Assembly (NCBI GenBank): GCA_016934825.1 | Contig: JAFGSB010000018.1 | Span: 1 to 64,000, forward strand | DNA: 64,000 nucleotides | DNA from: Candidatus Zhuqueibacterota bacterium | GTDB lineage: Bacteria; Zhuqueibacterota; Zhuqueibacteria; Residuimicrobiales; Krinioviventaceae | Reading direction: 5' to 3' | In this document: positions 14,144 through 24,222 of the stretch, one piece after another | Layout: each line of letters begins with the position of its first letter | Numbering within the stretch: the first letter of the stretch is position 1 | Translations under genes and position numbers: made by a program | Notes under the pieces: model-generated | Database searches by the model: none | The model's input: the letters and a program-made list of their open reading frames with translations, nothing else | Told to the model about the DNA's origin: nothing

Positions 14144-17100
14144 TTATTTTAACAAAATCATACGCCTGTTTTCCACAAATCTTTCGCCATTCGTTTCCGC
14201 TTCCAGACGATAAATATATATTCCGGTAGCCAGATTCATGCCCCGGTTATCGGTTCCGTCCCAGGATATTGAATAGACCCCGGCCTGCCGCTGTCCTGCA
14301 AATATCGTTTTGACTTCTTTCCCGAGTAAATTAAATATTGTCAGTTTGATATTGGCCGTCTTTGGAACGACAAACCGTATTTCCGTAACCGGATTAAAGG
14401 GATTAGGATAATTTTGTTCCAGCCGGAATTTTTCGGTCAGTATGCCGGTATTTCCGATTCCCGTTATTTCATCATTCAGGGCGATATCGGCATCGTACTT
14501 GTTGATTCCCGATCCTACCGGAACGGTCTCGGCGGTTTCGAGCGATTCCCCGTTGTAATAACCATCCTCAAAACCGGTCAGTGAGGCGGAAAGACTGTAC
14601 AAGCCGGCGGGTAAATTGTCCAAATGATAACCGCCGTCTTCGTCGGTTAAACCCGCGGCAATCATCCGTCCGTATTCCTGCGCCCGCACAAGAGCGCCCT
14701 CCACGGGAGCGCCCGTCCGGTCCGTTACCGTACCCGAAACAGCATAGGCGCCCTCTTCCTGAGGTGCAAGGCCAAAGTTTATGTTATCCGTTATCTGGTC
14801 GGCTTCCACCTTTATATGTTTGGCTTTTAACCAGAAATGGGTGTTATCATAAAATTCGCCGATATATCCTTGTGCCCGGCACACCGCAATATAGACACCG
14901 GGTTTTACTCCCGTCAATTCGTATGTTCCGTCCTGCCCGGTTACAGTCCGTTTGGGTTTAGCATAGGTCAACGGCATGATGGCCACCACGGCTCCCTCAA
15001 TGGGCTGGCCGGTTGAGTCATCCAGGACTACACCGGACAATCCTCCGCCTCCCGGCTCCACAGGGGACAGTGTAAAATCTATATCGGTTTGGACGCCTGA
15101 AGCGGTCAACTCAATCGGCGTGGCTTCACTTTTTATTTCCTTTTCCAAATACCATTCGCGCACATATCCCTTCTTTACCGCTGAGGCTTTATATGTCCCG
15201 GCCGGCAGACCGTAAACGGTATATTCACCATTTTCATTGGTTTTGACGCTTTTTTTCACATGTCCATGAACCTGTAATACCGCGACAATTGCTTTTTCCA
15301 GGGGCGTGTTATCTTTTGCATTCAGAACACGGCCGCCGATCTGTCCGCCGGCAACAAGAGTAAAATCGATTTCATCGTTCAGTTTTCCGCTTTCAACCGT
15401 CACCGGGGTCGCGCTGCCGACCGAATCGGCCTCCTGCCAGAATTCGACCAGATAGCTGTCCGCTTTGGCGGCAATCATATAATCGCCCGGGGGAATCGCG
15501 TCAAAACTGTAAGTTCCATCTGTTCCGGTTAAGACTGAAAAGAACCTGCCGTCGCCTTTGATTCGTCCCTCATAAAAAGCATTAACCCTTGCTCCGGCTA
15601 TCGGAAGTTGAGAATTCTCGTCAATCACTGTTCCGGATATGCCGCCGTAAGGGGCAAGATTTATCCGGATCGTTGTGTGCTGATCTGTAAACACCTGGAC
15701 CGGGGTGCCTTCCGCCGGTTTTTCAGCCTCCTGATACCATTCCGGCACAAATTCTTTTGCTTTTGTATAAACAAGGTAAAAACCGGCCCGCAACTGCATG
15801 GCAAACTCGCCCTGGTCATTGGTACGGGTCATATGCTCAAAGTGCGTTACCTCGCCCGGTTTTTCCGTTAATAAGGCATGCACCGCGACAACAGCCCCGG
15901 CAACGGGAGTCCCGTCCTGTTCGTTCGTCACAACACCGGTCAGGGCGTTGGTCATTTGAAGTGAAAAATCAATTCCCGGCGTTTCGTCCGGGGCTGTAAC
16001 ATTTACGGGTGTTATGTCCTCCGGTAATTTAACGCCGTTATAAAATTCGGCGGTATACCCGGCCTGGTTGGCCAGGACGGCATAGGAACCGGAACCCAAA
16101 CCTTCAATTTTATAAATACCGTCTTTATCCGTATACGTCTGGTATTTTCGATTGGGATTCACGATCAGGTAAGCGACAACATGCGCACCTTTTAAGGGGC
16201 TGGCCGACAATTCATCACTGACCAGCCCGGAAATACTGCCACCTTTCTCCAATTGAAAATCAATTCCCGGAATGGAATCATTTTCCGCCACTGTTACAAC
16301 GGAGGCCTCCATCAGGGTTGTCACGTCATCATAAAACTCGCGAACATATCCCTGCGTTTCGGCCATAACGACAAAATTCCCGGGTACCAGATTGTTGACG
16401 ACATATTCCCCGTTTTCATCCGTGTTTATCTTTTTGTATTGCGCGGGAACTCCCAGCCGTTTAACAGAAACGGTTGCGCCGCTCAGCGGCCCGTTTTCTT
16501 CATCGGTTACATGTCCCGCAATAACGCCGGACGGTTTCTCGCTGACCCATATTGTTGCCGCGCCTCTGTATATTTTATTTTCAATCTCAACCAGAGCTAT
16601 TATATCTCCTTCTCCATGACGCGGACCGGCGGTAAATACGCCTTTATTATTTATAAATCCCAGAGTTTTCGGTTCAACAAACCAGCGGACGCCACTGATG
16701 CGTAAAGACATGCCGTTTGGACCGACGGCTATTGCTTTAAAATTCCGGGTCCCCAGCGGGGGCACAACCGCTTTTTCCGGTTCAACCACTATTTTTATTG
16801 CCGGGTCCGGCGGTTGCCCTACCATCACTTCGGCCGATCCGGAAAATCGTTGGTTGCCGATTTGCGCTCCGGCCAGTATTTTCCCAAAATCCGGCTCGGT
16901 TCCGGCGACAAAATAACCTTCATTTGATATGACCCCCAGGTTTTCTGGAACAACTGTCCAGTCAAAATTATCAACTCTTACCGGTTGACCGGATTCGTCA
17001 AAGGCAAAAGCCTCAAATTGCACACCGCCGGCCGGTTCCACACGAGCCTCCTGCGGGGTGATCACAATCGAATTGCCATAGACGAAAGACGCTGTAACTA

Positions 17101-17149
17101 TCAAAGTTAAAATTAGCGGTAAAACGCTTGTTAATCTATTTTTAAACAT
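14144..17149 (-). CDS. Large exported repeat protein with C-terminal sorting domain
   Basis: 1001 residues. Signal peptide 1-25; two Ig-like (BIG2-type) repeats at about 26-115 and 118-205, each ending in a V-G-Q/V-S-E linker; then seven carboxypeptidase regulatory-like beta-sandwich repeats from about 210 to 880, each opening G-x-[IVL]-x-G-x-V-x-D and containing P-[LIV]-x-G-A-x-V and a D-G-x-Y turn. The last ~95 residues are a type-A sorting/FlgD-Ig-like domain (QNYPNPFNPVTEIRF, ATGIYIYRLE). This indicates export through a type IX-like system and surface attachment or release. No catalytic domain is visible, so an adhesive or scaffold role is inferred. The start has AAGGAG upstream. Confidence 0.88.
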   Translation of the reverse strand: MFKNRLTSVLPLILTLIVTASFVYGNSIVITPQEARVEPAGGVQFEAFAFDESGQPVRVDNFDWTVVPENLGVISNEGYFVAGTEPDFGKILAGAQIGNQRFSGSAEVMVGQPPDPAIKIVVEPEKAVVPPLGTRNFKAIAVGPNGMSLRISGVRWFVEPKTLGFINNKGVFTAGPRHGEGDIIALVEIENKIYRGAATIWVSEKPSGVIAGHVTDEENGPLSGATVSVKRLGVPAQYKKINTDENGEYVVNNLVPGNFVVMAETQGYVREFYDDVTTLMEASVVTVAENDSIPGIDFQLEKGGSISGLVSDELSASPLKGAHVVAYLIVNPNRKYQTYTDKDGIYKIEGLGSGSYAVLANQAGYTAEFYNGVKLPEDITPVNVTAPDETPGIDFSLQMTNALTGVVTNEQDGTPVAGAVVAVHALLTEKPGEVTHFEHMTRTNDQGEFAMQLRAGFYLVYTKAKEFVPEWYQEAEKPAEGTPVQVFTDQHTTIRINLAPYGGISGTVIDENSQLPIAGARVNAFYEGRIKGDGRFFSVLTGTDGTYSFDAIPPGDYMIAAKADSYLVEFWQEADSVGSATPVTVESGKLNDEIDFTLVAGGQIGGRVLNAKDNTPLEKAIVAVLQVHGHVKKSVKTNENGEYTVYGLPAGTYKASAVKKGYVREWYLEKEIKSEATPIELTASGVQTDIDFTLSPVEPGGGGLSGVVLDDSTGQPIEGAVVAIMPLTYAKPKRTVTGQDGTYELTGVKPGVYIAVCRAQGYIGEFYDNTHFWLKAKHIKVEADQITDNINFGLAPQEEGAYAVSGTVTDRTGAPVEGALVRAQEYGRMIAAGLTDEDGGYHLDNLPAGLYSLSASLTGFEDGYYNGESLETAETVPVGSGINKYDADIALNDEITGIGNTGILTEKFRLEQNYPNPFNPVTEIRFVVPKTANIKLTIFNLLGKEVKTIFAGQRQAGVYSISWDGTDNRGMNLATGIYIYRLEAETNGERFVENRRMILLK

Positions 17150-19191: not shown

Positions 19192-21717
19192 TCAGGAACC
19201 AAAAAATTTTTTCAATTCAGTATAGATCTCGTCTTTACTGCCGATCACATTATGGCAGGCCGGCAATGAACGTAAAAATCGCTTGCCGTAACTTTTACTG
19301 ACAACGCGGTTGTCCAATATAATCACGCTACCCCGGTCCGTTTTGCGGCGGATCAGTCTGCCAAAACCCTGTTTAAATTTCAATACGGCGATGGGCACCG
19401 CGTAATCCATAAAGGCATTACCGCCTTCTTTTTCAATTGCTTCATAACGGGCTTCAATAATAGGTTCGCTGGGCACTTTAAACGGCAGTTTGGTAATGAT
19501 AACCGATTCAAGCGCATCTCCCTCCACATCGACACCTTCCCAAAAACTGTCGGTGGCAAATAGAACCGAGGATTTGTCTTTTTTAAAAAGCGTTAACAAT
19601 TCATGGCGATTAAGCGTGCCCTGTTTAAGCGCTTTAATACCGACAAGGTTAAGTGATTCTTCCAGTTCCCTGTAGATCATTTGTAATAAACCGTATGAGG
19701 TAAACAGTACAAACGCGCTTCCCCGGGAAATGGTCAGGGATTTGAAAATAGCCGCGCCGAGTTCGGAAGCAAAAGAAGAATGCCGGGGATCGGGCATATC
19801 GGTCGGGATGGCCATAACAACCTGATTTTCATAATCAAAAGGGGCGGGCAGTTGCAGTTCCAATATACCGGTTTTATCGACCTGATTTAATCCCAGTCTA
19901 TCCGCTAAAAAGGCAAAACTGTTATCGGTTGTAAGGGTTGCGGATGTCATAACAATGGTATTAAAAACATCAAAAACCGCCAGCTTCATCATATCTTTTA
20001 CATGCAGAGGCGAAACCTGGAAATGAAGAATATTTATTTTTTTATAACCTGTCCTTGCTTCAATCCAGCGGATATTGTCTTCATCCCGGGTAAAGATGAC
20101 ATCCTGAAGAATATCGGCAACGGCCGAAAGTCTTTCCGCATTCGCTTCGATTTCAATCAGCATATTCGTCCAATCATCCGGGTCTTCCTGAACCGTTTTT
20201 TTGGTCAGGTCAATTAACTGCGACAAAACAATAGCTGCGGATTTTAAGGACTGTATATAATCTCTAAAATGCTGGTCCAAACCGGTTTGTGTAAATATTT
20301 TTTCAACGTTATCGGGCAGCATCCGAACCTTGACTTCTCTCTCTTCGTTTTTATTGAATTTTTGCAATACTTCGAACAGAAAATCCATTATTTCAAAAGT
20401 CGTATCGGTCAATTCTTCAATCTGGGGGACAATCGTACTGTGTATCATGTCCATGACTTTTAACAAATTTTTTTCCGCCGATTGGTCTTTTAATTTTAAT
20501 AATCTGTTACGCAGGTTATGTATATGACCCTTGAAAATCCCTTTTTTTTGCCTGTGAAGTCTGCGTAAAATCCTGACAATTCCTGCCCTGGTAATTTTGC
20601 TGCCGAAATAATTCGTGGCCACATTTTCGAGATGGTGCGCTTCATCAAAAATAATACACTGATAAGGCGGCAGGATAGCGGCGTCTTCGAAACTACCCGT
20701 TTGCTGCCGGATAGCCAGGTCGGCAAACAACAGATGGTGATTTACGACAAGGATTTGCGCCCGCGCGGCGTTGCGGCGCGCTTTATTCACAAAGCACTCC
20801 CGAAAATGCGGGCATTTACTGCGGGTGCAGGTATCGCTCTCGGCCGCGATTTTCTCCCACACATTCAGTGAAGGTATTTGTACCAGGTCTGCCTTACTGC
20901 CGTCTTTTGAGTGCCGCGCCCAGGTTATCAGATTTTTTAATTCCTCGATTTCATCTTCTTCCGCAAGGGTGGTAAAATCGGATTCCACTTCGTCCACCTT
21001 GCGTAAACACACATAATTTGAACGTCCTTTAACCAGAACGGCGTCAAATTCCAAATCCAGCACTTTTTTGAGTAAGGGGATATCTTTTTTAACAAGCTGT
21101 TCCTGCAAATTTATGGTATTGGTGGAAACCACAACACGGTCTTTGTTTTGCACCGCCCAGTGAATCGCCGGCAACAGATAGGCCATGGTTTTCCCGGTTC
21201 CCGTTCCGGCTTCAATAACCGCGAGTTTTTTCTGATTAAAAGCCAGGCTGACCGTTTCAATCATTTGTAATTGCTGCGGTCTTTCTTCGTAGCCGGACAA
21301 TGCCCCTGAAACGGGGCCTCCCGGCTCAAGTATCTTTTTTAAAAGTCCGGCGTCAACAGGATGTAGCTTTTTTTTCTTAAAGGGTTCTACAACGACATAA
21401 ATGTCCGATACGATATTATTGACGATATAAAACGCCACACTAAACCTGTCCAGACCGGAAGCGATGGACAGGTCCGCAGCGGAAGGTTTGAGCAAGCCGG
21501 ACGGGTGATTGTGAATGACAACATCCGCCTCCCGGGCAATTTTCAATACTGCCGGAACGGCAGATTCATTCCCCCTGGCAATGACATCTATTTTGTGTAC
21601 TATCAGGTCCTCTTCGGTGTAACCGACAAAAAAAACTTCATTCCCGCCGGTTTCCAAAACTGCCTGCTGAATGGATTCAATTACTTCTATAGACAGATAT
21701 TTATCAACTTTTGACAA
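19192..21717 (-). CDS. DinG/XPD-family Fe-S helicase with N-terminal RadC-like JAMM domain
   Basis: 841 residues. Residues 1-115 form a RadC/JAB domain with the complete JAMM signature: Glu27, His69-x-His71-Pro72, Ser79 and Asp82 (HNHPSG then PSAAD). The rest is a superfamily 2 DNA helicase: Walker A EAGTGTGKT (169-177), four Fe-S cysteines (Cys237, Cys297, Cys302, Cys308), DEAH (358-361), and late motifs TSATL and QGFGRLIRR. DinG-type helicases unwind 5' to 3' and remove D-loops, R-loops or G4 structures. The JAMM domain could be a metalloprotease or isopeptidase, or a nucleic-acid-binding module. The start is a TTG 6 bases after the upstream nuclease stop, with a poor ribosome site, so translation is probably coupled. 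Confidence 0.92.
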   Translation of the reverse strand: MSKVDKYLSIEVIESIQQAVLETGGNEVFFVGYTEEDLIVHKIDVIARGNESAVPAVLKIAREADVVIHNHPSGLLKPSAADLSIASGLDRFSVAFYIVNNIVSDIYVVVEPFKKKKLHPVDAGLLKKILEPGGPVSGALSGYEERPQQLQMIETVSLAFNQKKLAVIEAGTGTGKTMAYLLPAIHWAVQNKDRVVVSTNTINLQEQLVKKDIPLLKKVLDLEFDAVLVKGRSNYVCLRKVDEVESDFTTLAEEDEIEELKNLITWARHSKDGSKADLVQIPSLNVWEKIAAESDTCTRSKCPHFRECFVNKARRNAARAQILVVNHHLLFADLAIRQQTGSFEDAAILPPYQCIIFDEAHHLENVATNYFGSKITRAGIVRILRRLHRQKKGIFKGHIHNLRNRLLKLKDQSAEKNLLKVMDMIHSTIVPQIEELTDTTFEIMDFLFEVLQKFNKNEEREVKVRMLPDNVEKIFTQTGLDQHFRDYIQSLKSAAIVLSQLIDLTKKTVQEDPDDWTNMLIEIEANAERLSAVADILQDVIFTRDEDNIRWIEARTGYKKINILHFQVSPLHVKDMMKLAVFDVFNTIVMTSATLTTDNSFAFLADRLGLNQVDKTGILELQLPAPFDYENQVVMAIPTDMPDPRHSSFASELGAAIFKSLTISRGSAFVLFTSYGLLQMIYRELEESLNLVGIKALKQGTLNRHELLTLFKKDKSSVLFATDSFWEGVDVEGDALESVIITKLPFKVPSEPIIEARYEAIEKEGGNAFMDYAVPIAVLKFKQGFGRLIRRKTDRGSVIILDNRVVSKSYGKRFLRSLPACHNVIGSKDEIYTELKKFFGS

Positions 21718-21723
21718 ATTTTT

Positions 21724-22704
21724 TCAATAATTTAAGTTAGGCAATTCAACACTGCTGGATGGCTGCAGTAATTCCGCCTCGTAACCAATTTCATTGATAT
21801 AGGATGGAAAATCCTTGTCGCCATGTGTTGTGAAAACTTTTCGGGGATTGACTCTTTTAATAAATTCCAACAAATCTTCAAAATCCGCGTGATCGCTCAA
21901 CGCGATGGACAAATCACTTTTAAACCACACGCCATTATTGGAATTTGCCCACCCGGATAAAAAAGCCGTTTTATATTTAGAAGGCAGATATTTTAGCTTT
22001 CCCCACTTCATTAAATGCGGGGGAATAATGAGTACCTCGTCCGGTTCGACATTTTTTTCCTGCCATTGTTCACAATTTTGGAATGTCACTCCGAATTCAT
22101 TATAAACTTTGGCGAACCGCCACGCCGTATGATGAACCCGGACCCTGTAGCCCCTGTCTCCGATGATTTTCATGGCTTCCTGGGCTTTGCCAAGACTGTA
22201 TCCCAGAATAACAGGTGTATAACCCGTGTGTAAACAGTCCTCGATAAAAGAAACAACCTCATTGATTAAAAATTCACGGCTTTTCCTGACAACGAAATCC
22301 GGGTGCCCGAAAGTGGATTCCATAATCAGGTAATCCGCTTGCGGGATAACAATCGGCTCGCACGTTTCACTTTCCTGCAGTTTAAAGTCGCCGGTATATA
22401 AAAGTGAAACATTTTGGCGTTCAACTTTTATCATCGCGGAACCCAGAATATGACCCGCCGGGTACAAACTGATCTTTAAATCTTCATATTCAAAAAGTTC
22501 TTTAAAATCCAAAGGGATACTGTCTTTTTGCCTGGCCCGCATGGCGTGGAACTTAACGGTAGCCGGCGTCGCAAGAATTTTTTCATGGTTCTTCAGATGA
22601 TCGCCGTGTCCGTGAGAAACAAATGAAAATTTTGTGTTTCTGTGCGCGTCCATCCAAAAATCGGTTTTTTGTATTTTTATTCCTTTAACATCATATAAAA
22701 ACAT
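21724..22704 (-). CDS. MBL-fold/beta-CASP-like exonuclease
   Basis: Metallo-beta-lactamase-fold nuclease of the YSH1/ligase-associated exonuclease type, 326 residues. Metal motifs are HGHGDH (residues 31-36), PAGHILGSA (His85), LYTGDFK (Asp106), ALSDHADF and TTHGD. It begins behind AGGAG. Relatives process DNA ends or act with DNA ligase; an RNA role is also possible for the wider family. It follows pdxT by 32 bases and precedes the JAMM-DinG helicase by 6 bases. The nuclease-helicase pairing suggests a repair function, whereas linkage to pdxST is probably only transcriptional. Confidence 0.9.
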   Translation of the reverse strand: MFLYDVKGIKIQKTDFWMDAHRNTKFSFVSHGHGDHLKNHEKILATPATVKFHAMRARQKDSIPLDFKELFEYEDLKISLYPAGHILGSAMIKVERQNVSLLYTGDFKLQESETCEPIVIPQADYLIMESTFGHPDFVVRKSREFLINEVVSFIEDCLHTGYTPVILGYSLGKAQEAMKIIGDRGYRVRVHHTAWRFAKVYNEFGVTFQNCEQWQEKNVEPDEVLIIPPHLMKWGKLKYLPSKYKTAFLSGWANSNNGVWFKSDLSIALSDHADFEDLLEFIKRVNPRKVFTTHGDKDFPSYINEIGYEAELLQPSSSVELPNLNY

Positions 22705-22736: not shown

Positions 22737-23309
22737 TTAGCCTTTCACTTTTGTCAAAAAGTATTCATGTATCCTGGTATCATTTGTTAATTCCGGGTGA
22801 AAAGTGGCAGCTAAAATATTATTCTGTTCGACCATGACAACGTTTTGCCGATGCCAGGCCAGGGGGGTAACATTCTTTCCTGATGACACAATTTTGGGAG
22901 CGCGGATAAAAACGCCTTCAAATTTGTACTCCATCCCGGACATTTTGATATCAAGTTCATCAATAAAAGAGTCAATCTGGCGGCCGTATGCGTTACGTTC
23001 CGTAACAATATCTATTAAATCCAACGTCTCCACCGGTTCTTTGACAATTTGGCGTGATAAGATAATCAATCCGGCGCAGGTCCCAAAAACCGGCTTTTCC
23101 ACGGCAAAGTTATATACTTTTTCCCATAACTGGTGTTTTTTCAATAATTTGGTTAAAGTAGTCGACTCTCCTCCCGGAATGACAAGCCCGTCGCAAATGT
23201 CCAGATCCTTTTTAGTGCGAACCAAAACAGTATGCTGACCCAGAGTATCCAATGTAATTTTATGTTTTTCAAAATCACCCTGAAGAGCTAAAACGCCTAT
23301 CCTATTCAT
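22737..23309 (-). CDS. pdxT: Pyridoxal 5'-phosphate synthase glutaminase subunit
   Basis: Class I glutaminase delivering ammonia to PdxS for PLP synthesis. 190 residues, with GVLALQGDFEKH, the oxyanion segment PGGEST, nucleophile Cys78 in FGTCAGLI and the His-Glu pair in TFHPELTND. It follows pdxS by 28 bases, the standard pairing. Confidence 0.96.
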   Translation of the reverse strand: MNRIGVLALQGDFEKHKITLDTLGQHTVLVRTKKDLDICDGLVIPGGESTTLTKLLKKHQLWEKVYNFAVEKPVFGTCAGLIILSRQIVKEPVETLDLIDIVTERNAYGRQIDSFIDELDIKMSGMEYKFEGVFIRAPKIVSSGKNVTPLAWHRQNVVMVEQNNILAATFHPELTNDTRIHEYFLTKVKG

Positions 23310-23337
23310 ACCGTATTTTCACATTCATAAATTAATA

Positions 23338-24222
23338 TTACCACCCTCGTTTTGCCATACGTTCTTGTTCAGGAATAGCGGCAATTTCCAGTCCGGGCAT
23401 CGCTTCTCCCAATCCTTCCGAGACCCGGGCGATTAAATCGAAATCCATATAATGGGTTGTCGCCGACACGATCGCTTTTGCCCGCTCTTCAGGATCGGTG
23501 GATTTAAAGATACCGCTGCCGACAAAAACAGTTTCAGCGCCCAACTGCATCATTAAAGAGGCGTCCGCAGGTGTGGCAACACCGCCGGCGGAAAAATTCG
23601 GCACCGGCAGTCTTCCGAGCTTTTTAACTTCCCGGACCAATTCCACAGGTGCTCCCAGATTCTTGGCCTCGGTGACCAGTTCTTCATCGCCCAATACGGT
23701 AATTTTTTTAATCCCCTGTTGAACCGTCCGCATATGTCTTACAGCTTCTACAATATTACCGCTGCCCGCTTCTCCCTTTGTTCTTATCATAGCCGCTCCC
23801 TCGGCTATCCGGCGTAAAGCTTCACCCAGGTCTCTGCAGCCGCATACAAAAGGAACTTTAAATTTCCATTTATCGACATGGAATTCTTCGTCGGCAGGTG
23901 TTAATACTTCACTTTCATCTATAAAATCAACTCCCAGTGCTTCTAAAATCTGTGCTTCGGCAAAATGACCGATTCTGCATTTTGCCATGACGGGAATGGA
24001 AACAACATTCTGGATTGCTTTGATTACCTTGGGATCGGACATTCTGGCAACTCCGCCGTGAGCGCGAATATCAGCGGGGATCCGTTCCAGCGCCATGACT
24101 GCAACGGCTCCCGCATCCTCAGCTATTTTGGCCTGATCCGGTGTTGTAACATCCATAATTACACCACCTTTCAACATCTCGGCCAATCCAATTTTTAATT
24201 TTATATCCTTAGAATCTCGCAT
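23338..24222 (-). CDS. pdxS: Pyridoxal 5'-phosphate synthase lyase subunit
   Basis: Forms PLP from ribose 5-phosphate, glyceraldehyde 3-phosphate and ammonia. The 294-residue TIM barrel contains [52 protein letters not shown] and [25 protein letters not shown], all family signatures. ATG with GAGG upstream. It is the first gene of a minus-strand set pdxS-pdxT-nuclease-helicase; the 292 bases upstream hold no gene and should carry the promoter. PLP made here serves SelA and the MalY/PatB aminotransferase in this window, among others. Confidence 0.97.

Follow-up and report, generated by a model that had tools for sequence, protein, structure and literature searches.

A RadC-like JAMM domain joined to a DinG-type helicase in Candidatus Zhuqueibacterota and its relatives

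Among bacterial proteins that lack a settled function, RadC is one of the most common. Fusions of RadC domains to DinG/RAD3 helicases were noted by Iyer and colleagues in Aravind's group, and JAB domains of the RadC clade were reported to lack the groove and tunnel residues for a ubiquitin tail; on this ground, and because RadC occupies nuclease positions, a nuclease was predicted (PMC5512222, PMC3482391). As relayed in PMC5512222, the first such prediction was made in a 2011 deaminase-fold paper. The fusion was named RadC-like DinG by Cheng 2025, who listed its E/H/H/D residues, modelled a zinc and found DALI similarity to PfJAMM1 and CsRpn11, but left its function open and stated that there had been no research on it (PMC11981726). 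The published hints on RadC chemistry point in two opposite ways.

Related helicases are better characterised. The nuclease and helicase of Staphylococcus aureus DinG are both required for resistance to mitomycin C and formaldehyde (PMC12345164), and Bacillus subtilis DinG, which is located close to forks, degrades single-stranded DNA as well as the RNA strand in hybrids (PMC12525004). In Escherichia coli, dinG mutants show hypersensitivity to DNA-protein crosslinks that are covalent and not to complexes that are tight but non-covalent (PMC4437897), and FANCJ, an XPD-family helicase, translocates into a crosslinked protein and unfolds it, after which SPRTN cuts (PMC12279946). A RadC-type domain is tied to a helicase with relatives in crosslink or fork repair, and the fusion bears on whether bacteria possess a fused helicase-protease for DNA-protein crosslinks.

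Here, we describe such a gene in a 64,000-nucleotide stretch of a Candidatus Zhuqueibacterota genome (contig JAFGSB010000018.1; hereafter the window). The original prediction had been made in the belief that such a repair system was not known to be described; this is rejected for the architecture, which has been published (PMC11981726, PMC5512222), and stands for the biochemistry. The source gene is a member of a published, uncharacterised family, to which we add evidence on conservation and distribution.

The fusion gene and its JAMM site

The fusion is encoded on the minus strand at 19192–21717 and reads as 841 amino acids from a TTG start, as defined by its open reading frame and domain matches. 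The RadC-like JAB/JAMM domain takes up approximately residues 1–115 (21373–21717, minus strand), as delimited by a PF04002 match at residues 26–91, modelled strands to residue 110 and Foldseek. The Pfam match itself is marginal (22.8 bits against a gathering cut-off of 22.1), and the same profile is matched by 38/38 diverse fusion homologues (E ≤ 0.01). Direct reading of the codons from E27 to D82 (21472–21639, minus strand) gives the complete JAMM set E27, H69, H71, S79 and D82, exactly as the original prediction had it. AlphaFold2 modelled the JAB domain alone with a mean pLDDT of 89.5, and a Foldseek search with that model returned RadC (2qlc) at the top, followed by CSN5, PfJAMM1 and Rpn11. 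Sequence and model together place an E..HxHx(7)SxxD motif within an MPN fold at the N-terminus.

The rest of the protein is a DinG/YoaA-type XPD helicase (about residues 138–823; 19249–21306, minus strand), recognised by NCBIfam and PRK matches and by Foldseek. Its Walker A motif GTGTGKT lies at residues 171–177 (21187–21207, minus strand), its iron-sulphur cysteines are C237, C297, C302 and C308 (20794–21009, minus strand), its DEAH box spans residues 358–361 (20635–20646, minus strand) and a Helicase_C_2 profile match covers residues 659–819 (19261–19743, minus strand; Pfam, 162.7 bits). C237, C302 and C308 are kept in 81/81 homologues and C297 in 71/81. The claim that a RadC/JAMM N-terminus is joined to an intact Fe-S helicase is therefore upheld, with Walker A, DEAH and all four cysteines present. 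NCBIfam YoaA/DinG models span approximately residues 136–839, each scoring under its equivalog cut-off (for NF053712, 594 bits against 680), and PRK08074 and PRK11747 match the helicase part as well. In the full-length AlphaFold2 model (mean pLDDT 87.3, pTM 0.82), the best Foldseek match is E. coli DinG (6fwr) and the second is S. aureus DinG (9ii8); the helicase presumably translocates 5'-to-3' on single-stranded DNA. A profile search found no second Helicase_C_2 match elsewhere in the source genome, which also encodes a separate stand-alone RadC.

To gauge conservation we used 82 members from the window's class, a sample of Geobacter's phylum and one order, chosen by whole-domain similarity with the motif not required. 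All five JAMM residues (E/H/H/S/D) are intact in 82/82. Only 11 of the 143 alignment columns are invariant over these members (E27, R48, G49, H69, N70, H71, P72, P78, S79, D82 and N101), and all five JAMM positions are among them (hypergeometric probability of about 1e-6 with invariant columns placed at random). The set is also intact in 80/80 named loci (81/81 homologues aligned); these loci were retrieved with patterns containing the JAMM motif, so they were not used alone and profile-found members were added.

Degeneration was seen once, in a fusion (locus L208) of genome G139, in which HNHPSG has become RVRPGS, with E27G, H69R, H71R and S79E, and D82 aligned to E. The JAMM residues are lost there, save possibly the acidic position, and the helicase and Fe-S motifs are intact. 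Seven fusions in the same order are intact, and the loss is secondary because L208 sits inside the RadC-like DinG clade. A majority of homologues with a degraded JAMM site, the outcome looked for as a check on the original prediction, is rejected by this single degenerate case against 82 intact ones. Judged by this conservation, the predicted JAMM site of the fusion is very likely a working active site. The degenerate gene (L208:2000–4546, plus strand) can be called a 'pseudo-RadC' DinG and parallels the known pseudo-exonuclease DinG.

Distribution and relation to exonuclease-type DinG

The closest named relatives of the fusion are in metagenome-assembled genomes of candidate division KSB1/Calditrichota. 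Within the window's class the fusion occurs in 57/63 genomes; five of the six others lack Helicase_C_2 genes altogether, and in the sixth a contig end leaves a fragment. None of these 63 genomes shows a DinG that lacks the RadC domain. The distribution in the rest of the phylum is reciprocal: in 19 genomes of its other classes no DinG has an intact RadC-like domain profile match, and the DinG proteins there are approximately 915–990 amino acids long, with a DnaQ-like N-terminus in those read and an RNase_T exonuclease domain confirmed in two sister-class proteins. One family of the phylum (f20) encodes DinG proteins in which the exonuclease motifs are lost and RNase_T is not matched (L162:236–3085 and L163:200–3034, both minus strand). 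Outside the phylum, the fusion was found in records of Thermodesulfobacteriota, Myxococcota, Spirochaetota, Nitrospirota, Acidobacteriota, Poribacteria and Dependentiae. In the search set from Geobacter's phylum, there is exactly one Helicase_C_2 gene in each of the 18 genomes that carry an intact fusion, and likewise in the genome with the degenerate copy.

A tree of 66 helicase regions, built by a quick method with SH-aLRT support only, places all 35 RadC-like helicases in one clade (SH-aLRT 99). This clade adjoins the exonuclease-bearing ExoDinG of the sister classes (SH-aLRT 88), with stand-alone YoaA-like proteins falling outside. By this tree, the RadC-DinG fusion probably arose once. 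By tree and distribution together, RadC-DinG and ExoDinG appear to be two alternative ways of doing one job. An in-place exchange of the exonuclease for a RadC domain within the phylum is unsupported in its simple form, given that the RadC-like helicases are a single cross-phylum clade; an old divergence or a gene replacement appears likelier from these sequences.

Stand-alone RadC genes were met in two further settings during this survey. A 613-aa match at L209 proved to be a stand-alone RadC preceded by a long, spurious open reading frame and was discarded as a fusion. A RadC-like DinG with a stand-alone RadC match about 3.4–4.1 kb away on the same strand occurs in two genomes of Geobacter's phylum (G261, contig C44, 116122–116247 and 119635–120042; G209, contig C60, 7964–8074 and 12216–12632).

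The upstream hydrolase and the gene neighbourhood

Directly upstream of the fusion lies a gene for a metallo-beta-lactamase/beta-CASP-type hydrolase of 326 amino acids (21724–22704, minus strand), which matches RMMBL and, below the cut-off, TIGR04122 (195.8 bits against a curated 325). Its metal residues H31, H33, D35, H36, H85, D106, H272 and H294 are invariant in 24 homologues. An assignment to the ligase-associated exonuclease TIGR04122 was rejected on account of this sub-cut-off score and the missing cognate ligase, as TIGR04120 has no match in the source genome (95% complete). The hydrolase gene stops 6 bases before the TTG start of the fusion. The two genes share a reading frame, with a TGA stop and two codons between them (21717–21726), and suppression of that stop would fuse their products.

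A beta-CASP gene is found near the fusion, mostly immediately upstream, in 23/31 KSB1/Calditrichota-type loci, or 21/27 of those with at least 1.5 kb of upstream sequence, and in 0/49 other fusion loci. It is consequently at most a lineage-specific partner, and a general partnership is rejected; in KSB1/Calditrichota only, co-transcription with the fusion as a partner is probable. The nuclease partner of the original prediction survives in this limited form: a linked beta-CASP-type gene is indeed 6 bases away, but it is not a general feature. Across the loci compared, no other widely conserved neighbour of the fusion emerged, and the same comparison found no conserved ubiquitin-like partner gene. 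HolC is the known partner of YoaA in E. coli. It was not found in the source genome by PF04364, which scores over its cut-off in 0/30 class genomes.

Two further observations concern the surroundings. Immediately upstream of the hydrolase gene are a gene for a PdxT-type glutaminase of the SNO family and a PdxS-like gene (22737–24222, minus strand). A few KSB1 loci have genes of corresponding sizes in these places, and the repair genes may therefore sit in a vitamin B6 operon. On the other side of the fusion, a 1,001-aa protein (14144–17149, minus strand) carries seven CarboxypepD_reg repeats and a FlgD-Ig/secretion-tail C-terminus.

Proposed role and comparison with known systems

We favour, at a little under an even chance, a crosslink- or fork-repair helicase whose active JAMM metal hydrolase does the job of the ExoDinG exonuclease, with nucleic acid as the preferred substrate. 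RadC-like DinG would be loaded where crosslinks or stable protein or RNA barriers block a fork, the helicase would open the blocked structure and the N-terminal JAMM domain would hydrolyse the exposed material. We consider a phosphodiester or damaged end the more likely substrate, given that the JAMM domain takes the place of the DnaQ nuclease on the nearest sister helicases, and nucleic acid is favoured by this position together with the published groove argument (PMC5512222). In KSB1/Calditrichota, the upstream beta-CASP-type hydrolase would then probably process the resulting ends or RNA. A crosslink- or fork-repair role, as originally proposed, is plausible by analogy with the published DinG relatives.

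Several points count against this favoured reading. A positional match with a nuclease is no proof of the same chemistry, and our literature search found no JAMM or RadC protein with demonstrated nuclease activity. The predicted domain structure resembles the peptidases CSN5, PfJAMM1 and Rpn11 by Foldseek, in agreement with the DALI result of Cheng. E. coli radC mutants are reported to have normal DNA-damage sensitivity, as cited in PMC11981726, and the sister relation of ExoDinG and RadC-DinG has 88% support in a quick tree.

The resemblance to peptidases leads to the main alternative, in which the JAMM domain is a peptidase acting on covalently DNA-bound protein: the helicase would unfold the adduct and the fused domain would clip it, as a one-polypeptide counterpart of FANCJ and SPRTN. 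We regard this as possible but on the unlikely side. For the putative metallo-isopeptidase of the original prediction, the published comparative argument points instead to nucleic acid as the substrate. Characterised JAMM enzymes cleave peptide or isopeptide bonds and share the fold predicted here, FANCJ prepares crosslinked protein for SPRTN by unfolding it (PMC12279946) and the hypersensitivity of E. coli dinG mutants is specific to covalent crosslinks (PMC4437897), but JAB domains of that clade reportedly have no groove and tunnel residues for a ubiquitin tail, RadC included (PMC5512222, PMC3482391). There is also no conserved ubiquitin-like gene near the fusion to act as a partner. JAMM enzymes usually have a narrow specificity, and we know of no RadC for which protease activity has been reported. 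In its full form, with RadC-like DinG as a one-polypeptide DNA-protein crosslink repair enzyme made of an XPD-type helicase and a JAMM metalloprotease that cuts the adduct, we consider the proposal unlikely. If it were true, bacteria would have yielded their first JAMM protease of this kind, and a RadC domain would for the first time have a firm role.

Rather improbable, in our judgement, is a mainly structural or regulatory RadC-like domain for which catalysis is irrelevant, with the metal holding the fold or the domain serving to bind DNA ends or, instead of HolC, a partner in the replisome. The intact helicase of L208 beside its lost JAMM set, the existence of pseudo-exonuclease DinG (L162 and L163 here; pExoDinG in PMC11981726) and the missing HolC would all fit such a role. 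Yet the loss occurred once against 82 intact members, and the catalytic Glu and the Ser, both needless for a purely structural metal site, are invariant too. DinG helicases serve in phage defence, in type IV CRISPR among other systems, but that the fusion is a defence component of this sort is very improbable: the PADLOC typeIV_DinG models that match its helicase part (448.6 bits) match any DinG helicase, its loci have no conserved defence neighbours, csf/CRISPR-type genes included, and it is a JAB-bearing, single-copy core gene rather than a short CasDinG, near-universal in the class, that follows clade history. A patchy occurrence within defence islands, which would favour this reading, was not seen.

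With an active site kept in nearly every lineage examined, and a RadC domain at the position of the nuclease in the nearest relatives, the fusion offers a direct route to asking what RadC domains cut. One comparison is with FANCJ and SPRTN, which likewise pair an XPD-family helicase with a metalloprotease; the likeness is one of function only, as these are two separate proteins and SPRTN belongs to a metalloprotease family different from JAMM. The JAMM/MPN+ isopeptidases (PfJAMM1, Rpn11, CSN5 and AMSH) share fold and metal ligands with the fused domain but differ from the source fusion in its lack of a ubiquitin-like partner and in the tail groove reported missing from the RadC clade. Stand-alone RadC (PF04002, 2qlc), the best structural match, has the JAB fold and the HNHPSG..PS..D motif in common with the fused domain; it is approximately 230 amino acids long, whereas the fused domain forms a conserved group of its own with ARGN and IVNN motifs. 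ExoDinG (S. aureus and B. subtilis DinG; TIGR01407) is nearest in the tree and has the same type of helicase with a hydrolase at the same N-terminal position, but there the hydrolase, about 230–280 residues long, is a DEDDh exonuclease of the DnaQ type, whereas the source fusion has a JAB fold and no RNase_T/DEDDh match in Pfam. RadC-like DinG as described by Cheng 2025 from Desulfuromonas soudanensis shares the domain order, the E/H/H/D metal residues, the YoaA-like helicase and the absence of HolC, and nothing essential differs in the source gene, for which domain order, metal residues, helicase motifs, missing HolC and clade grouping all agree with membership. What sets it apart from other RadC-like DinG is its place on the KSB1/Calditrichota branch and the beta-CASP-type gene just upstream.
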